Below, piece by piece: positions 6,134 to 14,412 of a stretch of DNA of 64,000 nucleotides. The stretch spans positions 62,001 to 126,000 of the forward strand of contig JAQURS010000001.1 in assembly GCA_028715505.1 (NCBI GenBank), given 5' to 3'. The DNA comes from Patescibacteria group bacterium. GTDB lineage: Bacteria > Patescibacteriota > Patescibacteriia > 2-12-FULL-60-25. The first letter of the stretch is position 1, and every line of letters begins with the position of its first letter. A program made the position numbers and the translations under genes. A model generated the notes under the pieces. The model saw nothing but the letters and a program-made list of their open reading frames with translations, did not search any database and was not told the DNA's origin.

Positions 6134-9169
<3,036 letters not shown>

Positions 9170-9197
9170 ATCCAATGTTGGATGGTTAGTGCGCACG

Positions 9198-9220: not shown

Positions 9221-9281
9221 GATCTTTAGATAAGACGGCTTTGCCGTCGACCTCACTAAGCGATCAACTTGTTTGGTGGGG

Positions 9282-9397
9282 CCGGTGGCTCAAGCGAAGG
9301 GGTCACACCTGTTCCCATCTCGAACACAGCAGTTAAGCCCTTCAGCAGCGATGGTACTTGGACCCAACCCGGTCCTGGAAGAGTAGCCCGCTGCCGG
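9282..9397 (+). rRNA. rrf: 5S ribosomal RNA
   Basis: About 116 bases. Helix I is CCGGTGGC/GCTGCCGG. Conserved elements TCACACCTGTTCCCATC, CGAACACAGCAGTTAAGC and GCGATGGTACTTGG are present. It follows 23S by about 110 bases and is closed by a strong terminator. Its 3' end is duplicated at 10720-10743. Confidence 0.95.
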
Positions 9398-9402
9398 ACT
9401 AA
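9379..9402 (+). repeat. 24-bp direct repeat, copy 1 (5S rRNA 3' end)
   Basis: Twenty-four bases covering the 3' strand of 5S helix I plus ACTAA. They recur without mismatch at 10720-10743, and each copy is followed by an AACCTC/GAGGTT terminator. The two copies bound 1.34 kb. Confidence 0.85.
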
Positions 9403-9435
9403 AAATAAAACCTCGTGAAAGCGAGGTTTTATTTT
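9402..9435 (+). terminator. 5S rRNA operon terminator
   Basis: AAAATAAAACCTCG pairs with CGAGGTTTTATTTT around the loop TGAAAG. It is nearly symmetric, so it can act on both strands. Confidence 0.85.
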
Positions 9436-9496
9436 ATCCCATCTTTAATATAGTTTCTGAATAATAAGGCCGATGTTATAATACATCCTGTCATCT

Positions 9497-10093
9497 ATGT
9501 CACTGCAGTCATTTTTTGGTTATATCTCGGCGGTGTTAAGCATTCTCATGATTATCCCGTATGTACGCGATATTTTGAAAAAGAAAACTCGACCAGAACG
9601 TGCTTCATGGTTTATCTGGACTGTTCTTGGCTTTATTGCTTTTGCTTCTCAGCTTGCCAAAGGCGCCACGCATTCGCTCTGGTTGACTGCGGGGCAGACT
9701 TTGGCCGTCTTAGTCGTTTTTATACTCTCGATAAAATTCGGGACCGGAGGATTAGTCTCACGCGACATTAAGGCGCTCATCGCTGCTGGTTTTGGCCTAT
9801 TCATGTGGTATATCACGAGTGAACCGTTATTTGCTCTTGTGATGGTCATTTTTGTTGATGGTACAGGCACTCTCCTGACCGCGATTAAAGCCTACCAAGA
9901 ACCCGAGACCGAAACATTGATCACTTGGCTAATCTCTGGAACCTCAGGCATCTTCGGAGTTCTTGCGGTCGGTAATTTTGATCCCGTCCTCGTTGCGTAC
10001 CCTGTCTATATCGTGGCGGCGAATTTTATTATCGCTTCGCTATTGCTTCTTGGAAGGAAACGAATCCGTCAAACGGCGAATAAATTATTATAG
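9497..10093 (+). CDS. Seven-span membrane protein, PQ-loop-like
   Basis: A 198-residue integral membrane protein with about seven hydrophobic segments. The pattern IPYVRDILKKKTRPERASWF, with a conserved Trp and Pro pair in the first and fifth spans, recalls PQ-loop/SWEET-type transporters, but the PQ motif itself is not exact. An extended -10 (TGTTATAAT, ending 9482) lies 14 bases ahead of the start, so the mRNA has almost no leader. The gene is the first of two inside the interval bounded by the 5S-derived repeats. The substrate is unknown. Confidence 0.65.
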   Translation: MSLQSFFGYISAVLSILMIIPYVRDILKKKTRPERASWFIWTVLGFIAFASQLAKGATHSLWLTAGQTLAVLVVFILSIKFGTGGLVSRDIKALIAAGFGLFMWYITSEPLFALVMVIFVDGTGTLLTAIKAYQEPETETLITWLISGTSGIFGVLAVGNFDPVLVAYPVYIVAANFIIASLLLLGRKRIRQTANKLL

Positions 10094-10142
10094 GATCGGT
10101 TGTTCTAGTGTGTTTGTTTTGAATTATAAGTATAATGCTGCA

Positions 10143-10727
10143 ATGACCATCAACCAAGATCGACTTCAAGTCTTTTTCGCTCGTTTCCCCTTGCTTTTGC
10201 CTGTGGTCACGAAACTCAACGAAGCCGGGATCCCTTTCGCCATTGGCGGGAGCGGATGTCTTTATCTTTTTGGCAACGAACGGCAACCAGATGACGTTGA
10301 TATCTATTTGCCGGATGATAAGCATGATGAAGCCGATAAGCTTTTCGGAATTGAATCGTATACTTACAAATCAGAAATGGAGAACGTGCGAAATTCAAAT
10401 CCCCAGGGCGATCATTCCATTCAACTGACAAGTCATCTGACGCTGAGCTCGGATGGTAAAACCTATAAGATCAGCTTGAACGATCATGTTTTGAGCCATG
10501 CGACCAAATTTGAATACGAAGGTCAGACAATCCTGCTTCTTCCGGTTGAAGATGTTCTGCTTATAAAAGCTTTATTGCAGCGTGGCCCCGAAGTGAATAA
10601 GCACGACATCGAAGACATTCGCCGATTCCTGGCGATTCAACCAAATATTGATCGTGATTATCTAAAATCCCGCGTCCGTGAGTTAGGAGCGGAGGGGAGA
10701 GTCGGAAATATTTTTAATCAAGAGTAG
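10143..10727 (+). CDS. Nucleotidyltransferase-fold protein
   Basis: A 194-residue protein. IPFAIGGSGCLYLFGNER followed by PDDVDIYLPDD matches the GG/S and DxD pattern of the nucleotidyltransferase superfamily (MNT/AbiEii-like), where the two Asp bind metal. LLPVEDVLLIKALLQRG matches the following helix in that group. Targets in the family include tRNA, proteins and antibiotics; none can be assigned here. The start MTINQDRLQVFF is chosen because upstream codons overlap the membrane-protein gene in another frame. The stop codon lies inside the second 24-bp 5S repeat, so recombination there may have set the C terminus. No partner antitoxin is seen. Confidence 0.65.
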   Translation: MTINQDRLQVFFARFPLLLPVVTKLNEAGIPFAIGGSGCLYLFGNERQPDDVDIYLPDDKHDEADKLFGIESYTYKSEMENVRNSNPQGDHSIQLTSHLTLSSDGKTYKISLNDHVLSHATKFEYEGQTILLLPVEDVLLIKALLQRGPEVNKHDIEDIRRFLAIQPNIDRDYLKSRVRELGAEGRVGNIFNQE

Positions 10728-10743
10728 CCCGCTGCCGGACTAA
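10720..10743 (+). repeat. 24-bp direct repeat, copy 2 (5S-derived)
   Basis: An exact copy of 9379-9402. It overlaps the last codons and TAG stop of the nucleotidyltransferase gene. Confidence 0.85.
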
Positions 10744-10745
10744 TG

Positions 10746-10772
10746 AAAAAACCTCCATAACGGAGGTTTTTT
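10746..10772 (+). terminator. Second 5S-type terminator
   Basis: AAAACCTCC/GGAGGTTTT hairpin with T-run, similar to but not identical with the 5S terminator at 9402-9435. Confidence 0.75.
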
Positions 10773-10812
10773 CAATTCTTCTGAAACGGCTACTAGTCAC
10801 CGTTTCGGAAGG

Positions 10813-10842
10813 AATCCCGTCAATGAGCCCGACGGGAAGGGG
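10813..10842 (-). repeat. 3'-flank hairpin repeat, copy 1
   Basis: TCCCGTC/GACGGGA hairpin lacking a T-run, downstream of the 10867 gene. A sibling lies at 11374-11404, downstream of the next gene. Confidence 0.5.
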
Positions 10843-10866
10843 AGTGTGTGAGGATGGTTGCAGGTG

Positions 10867-11373: not shown

Positions 11374-11404
11374 GATCCCGTCTATGAACCCGACGGGAAG
11401 GGAA
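11374..11404 (-). repeat. 3'-flank hairpin repeat, copy 2
   Basis: ATCCCGTC/GACGGGA hairpin downstream of the 11414 gene; the flanking GGGAAGG is also shared with copy 1. Confidence 0.5.
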
Positions 11405-11413
11405 GGAAGATTG

Positions 11414-12318: not shown

Positions 12319-13113
12319 ATGCCAAAAATTATCGAGATTTTAAGCGCTTTTTCCTTATCGGACATGGAGTCTAAGATTTATTTATCCGCTTTGGGCATGG
12401 ATAAACCAGTTGTTACCCAAATAGCCAAAAAAATCGGCATGAACCGTACTGCTACGTATCACCACATTAACCATCTGCTCGAAAAGGGTTTTCTCAAGCA
12501 AAGCAGGAAGGGGAGAGTGGTACAGCTGGTAGCCGTCCCGCCGGTTGAGGTCGCGGAACGCTTCGATCGTCTGTCCACGGATTTCCGAAGCCTGGTCCCG
12601 CAACTCGAATCCCTGAAGAAGATCTCGCGCGAGACGCCCGTCATCGAGATCAAGGAATCGCGGCAAGGTTACGCCGAAGTTTATGAAGAACTCTCATCTT
12701 TACCCGAAGGAGCCATGTTCAGAGTTTTGGAAGGCGCCGCGGCCATGAAAAAGGAGTTGCATTTGCTGACCGAAAAGGAATTAAATAAGTTTTATAACAG
12801 GGTCGTTGAACGCAAAATCTTAACTCGCGCCATATTTACGTCGGAGTCAATTAATTTCGTCTACAGTGAATTGAGTCCGTCGAATCTAGATGTTTTGAAA
12901 AAACGCATTTGGCAATTAAAAACAATTTCCGAAAGTCAGTTGCCCTTTAGCCAACTCATGTTCGTTTATGGAGAAAAAATCGCGTTCATGTTCCCGGAAT
13001 CTTCATTGGTCATGACCATCAAACATAAGGGCATTGCCGACGCCATGGCGGCCATGTTCGAGGGATTGAATAGTTTCGCAAAACCAATCGAACGTCCTTG
13101 GGAAAGAAAATAA
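12319..13113 (+). CDS. TrmB-type transcriptional regulator
   Basis: A 264-residue protein. Residues about 5-75 form a winged helix-turn-helix: LSDMESKIYLSALGM, PVVTQIAKKIGMNRTATYHH as the recognition region, and the wing KQSRKGRVVQLVAV. This N-terminal arrangement is characteristic of the TrmB family, which often senses sugars. A short coiled stretch follows, then a C-terminal domain of mixed strands and helices (GAMFRVLEGAAAMKKEL ... LMFVYGEKIAFMF), as in other bacterial TrmB-like proteins. Its target is unknown. It starts 8 bases after the -10, so translation is leaderless. Confidence 0.8.
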   Translation: MPKIIEILSAFSLSDMESKIYLSALGMDKPVVTQIAKKIGMNRTATYHHINHLLEKGFLKQSRKGRVVQLVAVPPVEVAERFDRLSTDFRSLVPQLESLKKISRETPVIEIKESRQGYAEVYEELSSLPEGAMFRVLEGAAAMKKELHLLTEKELNKFYNRVVERKILTRAIFTSESINFVYSELSPSNLDVLKKRIWQLKTISESQLPFSQLMFVYGEKIAFMFPESSLVMTIKHKGIADAMAAMFEGLNSFAKPIERPWERK

Positions 13114-13144
13114 AAAAACACTCTCAGCGATTGCTTCAAGTGTC
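13113..13144 (-). terminator. Terminator of the 13136 gene
   Basis: On the minus strand ACACTT pairs with AGAGTGT, followed by seven T; it overlaps the gene's stop. Related hairpins lie at 13806 and 14382. Confidence 0.65.
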
Positions 13145-14358: not shown

Positions 14359-14381
14359 GCAATAAAACCGATGAGAAAAAG

Positions 14382-14412
14382 AAAAACACTCTCAGCTGTC
14401 GCTTCGAGTGCC
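14382..14412 (-). terminator. Terminator of the 14432 gene
   Basis: GCACTC/GAGAGTGT stem on the minus strand, closely similar to the hairpin at 13113-13144, with a short T-run. Confidence 0.6.

Follow-up and report, generated by a model that had tools for sequence, protein, structure and literature searches.

How did two protein-coding genes come to lie between an intact 5S rRNA gene and a second, exact copy of that gene's last nucleotides? This arrangement occurs in a 64-kb stretch of a Patescibacteria genome (G000; contig JAQURS010000001.1, positions 62,001 to 126,000), to which we refer as the window. A sequence-only reading had interpreted it as the trace of site-specific insertion at an RNA gene 3′ end. 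The 24-bp repeat on which that reading was built, AAGAGTAGCCCGCTGCCGGACTAA, proved to be exact at both 9379-9402 and 10720-10743, with the copies spaced 1341 bp apart (Table 1). Because Rfam placed the 5S end at 9399, the repeat consists of the last 21 nt of 5S followed by TAA, a direct repeat built from the 5S 3′ end beside a 5S gene that is itself intact. With up to three mismatches allowed, we found no third 24-mer copy in the window and only two occurrences of the 20-nt core of the repeat in the 1.07-Mb genome; shuffled sequence gave 0 matches. These shuffles and the whole-genome count rule out a chance origin of the repeat. The 5S-derived core, TAGCCCG-CTGC-CGGACTA on the minus strand, is an imperfect palindrome. 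As had also been noted, a terminator follows each copy, the arms of the first (9402-9415 and 9422-9435) being complementary at 14 of 14 positions, and the stop codon of the nucleotidyltransferase gene (TAG, 10725-10727) lies inside the second copy.

Table 1. Features of the 5S locus in the window and of a related element in the same genome
Feature	Position	Strand	Basis or remark
23S rRNA gene	6135..9170	+	Rfam RF02541; context
5S rRNA gene; 3′ end = proposed attB	9281..9399	+	Rfam RF00001, 84.8 bits
24-bp repeat copy 1 (5S 3′ end + TAA), 5S-proximal junction	9379..9402	+	exact match
Terminator 1	9402..9435	+	perfect 14-nt inverted repeat
Cargo gene 1: hydrophobic (membrane) protein, 198 aa	9497..10093	+	
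Cargo gene 2: nucleotidyltransferase (PF14907/DUF2204), 194 aa	10143..10727	+	Pfam
24-bp repeat copy 2; proposed displaced end of original 5S gene	10720..10743	+	exact match
Terminator 2	10744..10774	+	stem of 13 pairs
tRNA-Met element, window's genome	G000:C3:53248-62671 (L241)		9.4 kb; recombinase, 26-bp repeat, terminator after each copy

We consider it probable, at roughly three chances in four, that the 5S 3′ end is an attachment site (attB) for a family of tRNA-type tyrosine recombinases and that 9403-10719 is a unit inserted in this way. In the proposed route, the 5S 3′ end in this lineage would serve as chromosomal attB for tyrosine-recombinase elements that elsewhere target tRNA 3′ ends. 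An incoming element would bring a 5S 3′-end copy and, behind it, a terminator of its own, so that recombination would leave a complete and terminated 5S gene at the left, with the original 5S end and its terminator displaced to the right edge. The interval at 9403-10719 would be an inserted unit of this kind; as it lacks a recombinase, it would either have been moved by an enzyme acting in trans or be the residue left after deletion of most of a larger element. By analogy with an empty-site contig described below, terminator 1 probably arrived with the insert and terminator 2 is probably the original 5S terminator. Terminator 2 is similar to the 5S terminator of a relative (G005; TAATGAAAAAACCCTCGAAAGAGGGTTTTTTCAATT).

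The interval differs from its surroundings in composition, with a GC content of 43.9% versus 52.5 ± 4.0%, in the bottom 1.3% of the window. Its cargo had been described as a seven-span membrane protein and a nucleotidyltransferase; Pfam confirmed the second assignment, and the upstream ORF encodes a hydrophobic protein with no match in Pfam, PHROG or PADLOC. Homologues of this hydrophobic protein occur in 25 of 96 relatives, and the nucleotidyltransferase is patchy, occurring in 6 of the 380 class genomes. In three of these (G026, G061 and G275) it does not lie at 5S, and in the distant G275, a genome of another family, homologues of both cargo genes are neighbors away from 5S (L246), where the protein adjoining the nucleotidyltransferase homologue is 49% identical to that of cargo gene 1. 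Together, the two cargo genes form a pair of patchy distribution. At L246, the pair is flanked by aldo-keto-reductase-like and Fic-like genes, named by inspection, and is not at an RNA gene. Profile searches of the ORFs in 9403-10719 gave no recombinase match, as the sequence-only reading had held, and neither arm-type sites nor a terminal motif common to both edges of the interval was found, so that the interval alone is not autonomous.

Two further genomes, G001 and G035, have nucleotidyltransferase homologues near 5S with no second copy of the 5S end, and the position of this gene could therefore partly reflect old synteny. Taken further, these cases would fit an ancestral gene order in which the nucleotidyltransferase had long stood behind 5S and the 5S end with its terminator was copied behind the gene to act as its terminator. 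We consider such an origin very improbable: the gene is rare in the class and lies elsewhere in the three genomes named above, its identity between the window's genome and G001 of the same genus (68%) equals that with G035 of another genus (69%), and the same 5S-end copy accompanies other genes in the two further cases described below. Neither Xer identities nor nucleotidyltransferase identities separated vertical from horizontal descent.

To place the window among its relatives, we located 5S in 69 of 96 related genomes, in which it is nearly always single, and read the DNA downstream of it in 40. Within the window's genus, the distance from 5S to the common downstream gene ranges from 4.5 to 18 kb, with gene content that hardly overlaps between genomes. 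In none of the other eight genomes of the genus did we find the two cargo genes together with both copies, which answers the suggestion that all relatives might share them. When 41 5S loci were scanned for 5S-end copies by gapped local alignment, the window scored 24 and G006 scored 18; all other loci and the controls scored at most 13. A decayed copy in G095 scored 13, equal to the best control, and was not counted, and core-like matches in G014 and G019 were dismissed as chance, since on inspection they lay inside unrelated sequence. No recombinase was found near 5S in 41 genomes of the family, and a scan of IMG/VR for the 5S core found none. A methyltransferase-like gene behind 5S in G001 (L064 / L069) has on both sides, in inverted orientation, a terminator-like sequence, AAACTGAAAAC..CACCCCGAGGAGCT. 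We also observed partial copies of the 5S 3′ end, 40-55 nt long, in other families of the class, at 888 bp (G072, L234), 88 bp (G290, L235) and 119 bp (G291, L236) behind 5S; the far copies of G072 and G290 end in nucleotides that do not match the 5′ strand of the host's own 5S.

The arrangement in the window recurs with different cargo. In G006 (MWCR01000001.1, Parcubacteria ADurb.Bin192), a member of the window's genus, an APH-type kinase gene separates 5S from AGCCCGTCGCCGGACTAA, which follows 861 bp downstream, and the interval closes with an 18-bp copy of the 5S end that contains the TAA stop codon of the kinase. When 84,980 genomes were scanned for the 5S core, we obtained contig C116 (JAQUKQ010000116.1), on which an HNH gene lies between two 5S-end copies 771 bp apart; behind the far copy, in which about 56 nt of 5S are retained, come a terminator (ATCCCTTAACGGGGAT) and then a minus-strand gene. 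The same HNH gene with the same left terminator lies directly behind 5S in G002, with two extra ORFs instead of a second copy.

A further search for the core identified C200, a contig of the same metagenome bin as C116, which carries a complete 5S gene (87.1 bits) followed by a terminator and then by a convergent gene for a 385-aa recombinase of the tyrosine type (Phage_integrase PF00589, 1.6e-31; Phage_int_SAM_3), with an HTH_17 gene directly behind it. The ends of C200 and C116 overlap by exactly 127 bp at 100% identity, as is the case for adjoining contigs of an assembly graph, and joining them yields a 10,990-bp element bounded by the 5S end on one side and by a second 5S-end copy on the other. 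Behind this element comes the HNH interval with its own far copy, an order that fits accretion in which the HNH unit entered first and the large element later and closer to 5S. Genes for LexA, a staphylococcal-nuclease homologue, a ThsB-type TIR protein, an E2-like protein and a PDC-M50A protein are among the cargo of the element. A 20-mer, CATTGCCCACCTGTTGCCCA, occurs at each of its edges, about 120 bp inward and in the same orientation, and by its placement these copies are candidate arm sites of the integrase. The element also contains a LOOT RNA (RF03000, 68.5 bits; L192:7955-8085, minus strand).

A third contig of this bin, C197 (JAQUKQ010000197.1), represents the empty site, with a complete 5S gene, one terminator identical to that of C116 (ATCCCTTAACGGGGAT) and a flank 92% identical to that of the filled site, with the same downstream gene; neither element nor insert sequence was found on it. 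Its 5S is 100% identical to that of the congener G002, indicating that these contigs of a Desulfobulbaceae-labelled bin were mis-binned, and the bin is a mixture of two strains. Contig coverage is low according to the record titles (3.8x for C116 and 5.1x for C197), and the evidence for both the element and the empty site comes from this one bin, STD1_110 of the Sandtown D1 sample. The comparison proposed to test the sequence-only reading, empty against filled sites in related genomes, thus came out in favor of insertion for this sister lineage, in which C197 and C116 share a flank, and gave no empty counterpart among relatives for the window's own flank. As a consequence, we infer insertion at the window from the anatomy of the interval and from its sister cases. 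The general claim of site-specific insertion at an RNA gene 3′ end is supported by these relatives, both through the empty and filled sites and through the integrase-bearing element.

The partial 5S copies in tandem in G290, G291 and G072, together with the length of the far copy on C116, could suggest a route that requires no dedicated enzyme, either a RecA-type single crossover between a circle and the 5S 3′ end or a tandem duplication of 5S in which most of the second copy was later lost. We find both variants improbable. Repeats of 18-24 bp would give homologous recombination very little length to act on, the same 5S coordinates are occupied by a recombinase-bearing element, and the intervals are filled by unrelated genes. 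Tandem duplication of 5S, which had been named as a possible alternative, does not explain the window, where 5S recurs in no more than its last 21 nt after 1.3 kb of unrelated genes and gives no second Rfam match.

The recombinase on C200 belongs to a family that is otherwise found at tRNA genes. Relatives at E ≤ 1e-30 were present in 35 of 380 class genomes, and at most of the 30 loci that we fetched, the 3′ end of a tRNA (or tmRNA) gene adjoins the 3′ end of the recombinase gene in convergent orientation. Phage collections contained only distant integrases, the best about 31% identical. The best match, 55% identical, is encoded in the window's own genome, by an element at tRNA-Met rather than at 5S (Table 1). 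This element resembles the 5S system in its recombinase, in its RNA 3′-end repeat and in the terminator after each copy, and differs in its target, in its length and in carrying its own recombinase. A copy of the RNA gene end plus a terminator looks like the normal junction layout of this recombinase family, and the 5S system seems to be a variant of such a tRNA-type family with a different target. At the same tRNA-Met, G001 has a 23.8-kb element.

If the window interval did enter through this attachment site, its small size can be accounted for in two ways. The short intervals may be remnants, in which full-length recombinase elements inserted at the 5S end and then lost the recombinase and arm sites by internal deletion, and we give this slightly less than an even chance. 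Consistent with such decay, a full-length element is present at the same site on C200 and C116, arm-like terminal repeats are absent from the short intervals, and the 5S-end copies of G290 and G291, solo or in tandem at spacings of 88 and 119 bp, resemble nearly empty residues. No recombinase that could act on 5S in trans was seen in the genomes that hold short units, which speaks for remnants and against mobilization in trans. However, in all three short intervals (window, G006 and HNH), the last gene runs to its natural end right at the 5S-derived copy, and its stop codon lies within that copy or on the edge of it, an outcome that random deletion would not favor.

This abutment is better matched by compact non-autonomous cassettes, each a gene with a 5S-like site and a terminator, that would be moved in trans in the manner of integron cassettes. 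The three short units contain different genes in one orientation and one layout, with the gene end followed by the 5S-derived copy and then by the terminator, and the HNH unit lies directly behind 5S in G002 and behind the 11-kb element on C116 with the same left terminator. Nevertheless, this HNH unit has orthologous flanks in both, so it may have been inherited rather than moved twice, and we regard cassettes as a tentative and rather unlikely explanation. It is somewhat more doubtful still that Patescibacteria possess integron-like single-gene cassettes that tRNA-type recombinases would move in trans and that would stack behind a single 5S gene.

Insertion at tRNA and tmRNA gene ends is textbook knowledge. 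To our knowledge, the end of a 5S rRNA gene has not been described as a place where insertions recur and for which a recombinase is identified, and we found no precedent for a 5S attachment site in the open-access literature, where candidate papers mention 5S in gene counts only. As in tRNA and tmRNA 3′-end islands with phage-type tyrosine recombinases, the RNA gene end is restored by a copy and the displaced end with its terminator lies at the far edge; the full-length relative further shares with them a recombinase convergent beside the RNA gene, defense cargo, LexA and HTH_17. In contrast to these islands, the target is 5S rRNA, and the window interval measures 1.3 kb and has no recombinase. 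Because 5S is usually single in these small genomes, an element must restore it exactly. Integron gene cassettes are similar in that short single genes abut a recombination site in one orientation and accrete beside a fixed site; they differ in that the site here is a piece of the 5S rRNA gene and mobilization in trans is hypothetical, with no IntI and no sign of attC in the general searches of this analysis. The 5S end is a defined place in which mobile defense genes of uncultured Patescibacteria can be sought, and it allows a test of how integrases change from one RNA target to another. Were the tentative cassette explanation true, the end of the rRNA operon would be a gene-collecting platform.

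Other repeats lie further downstream in the window. A 31-nt repeat (90%) at 10814-10844 and 11375-11405 forms a CCCGTC...GACGGG hairpin behind each of two neighboring minus-strand genes, and a 35-nt repeat (83%) at 13108-13142 and 14376-14410 is located close to gene ends within the variable region that follows 5S.
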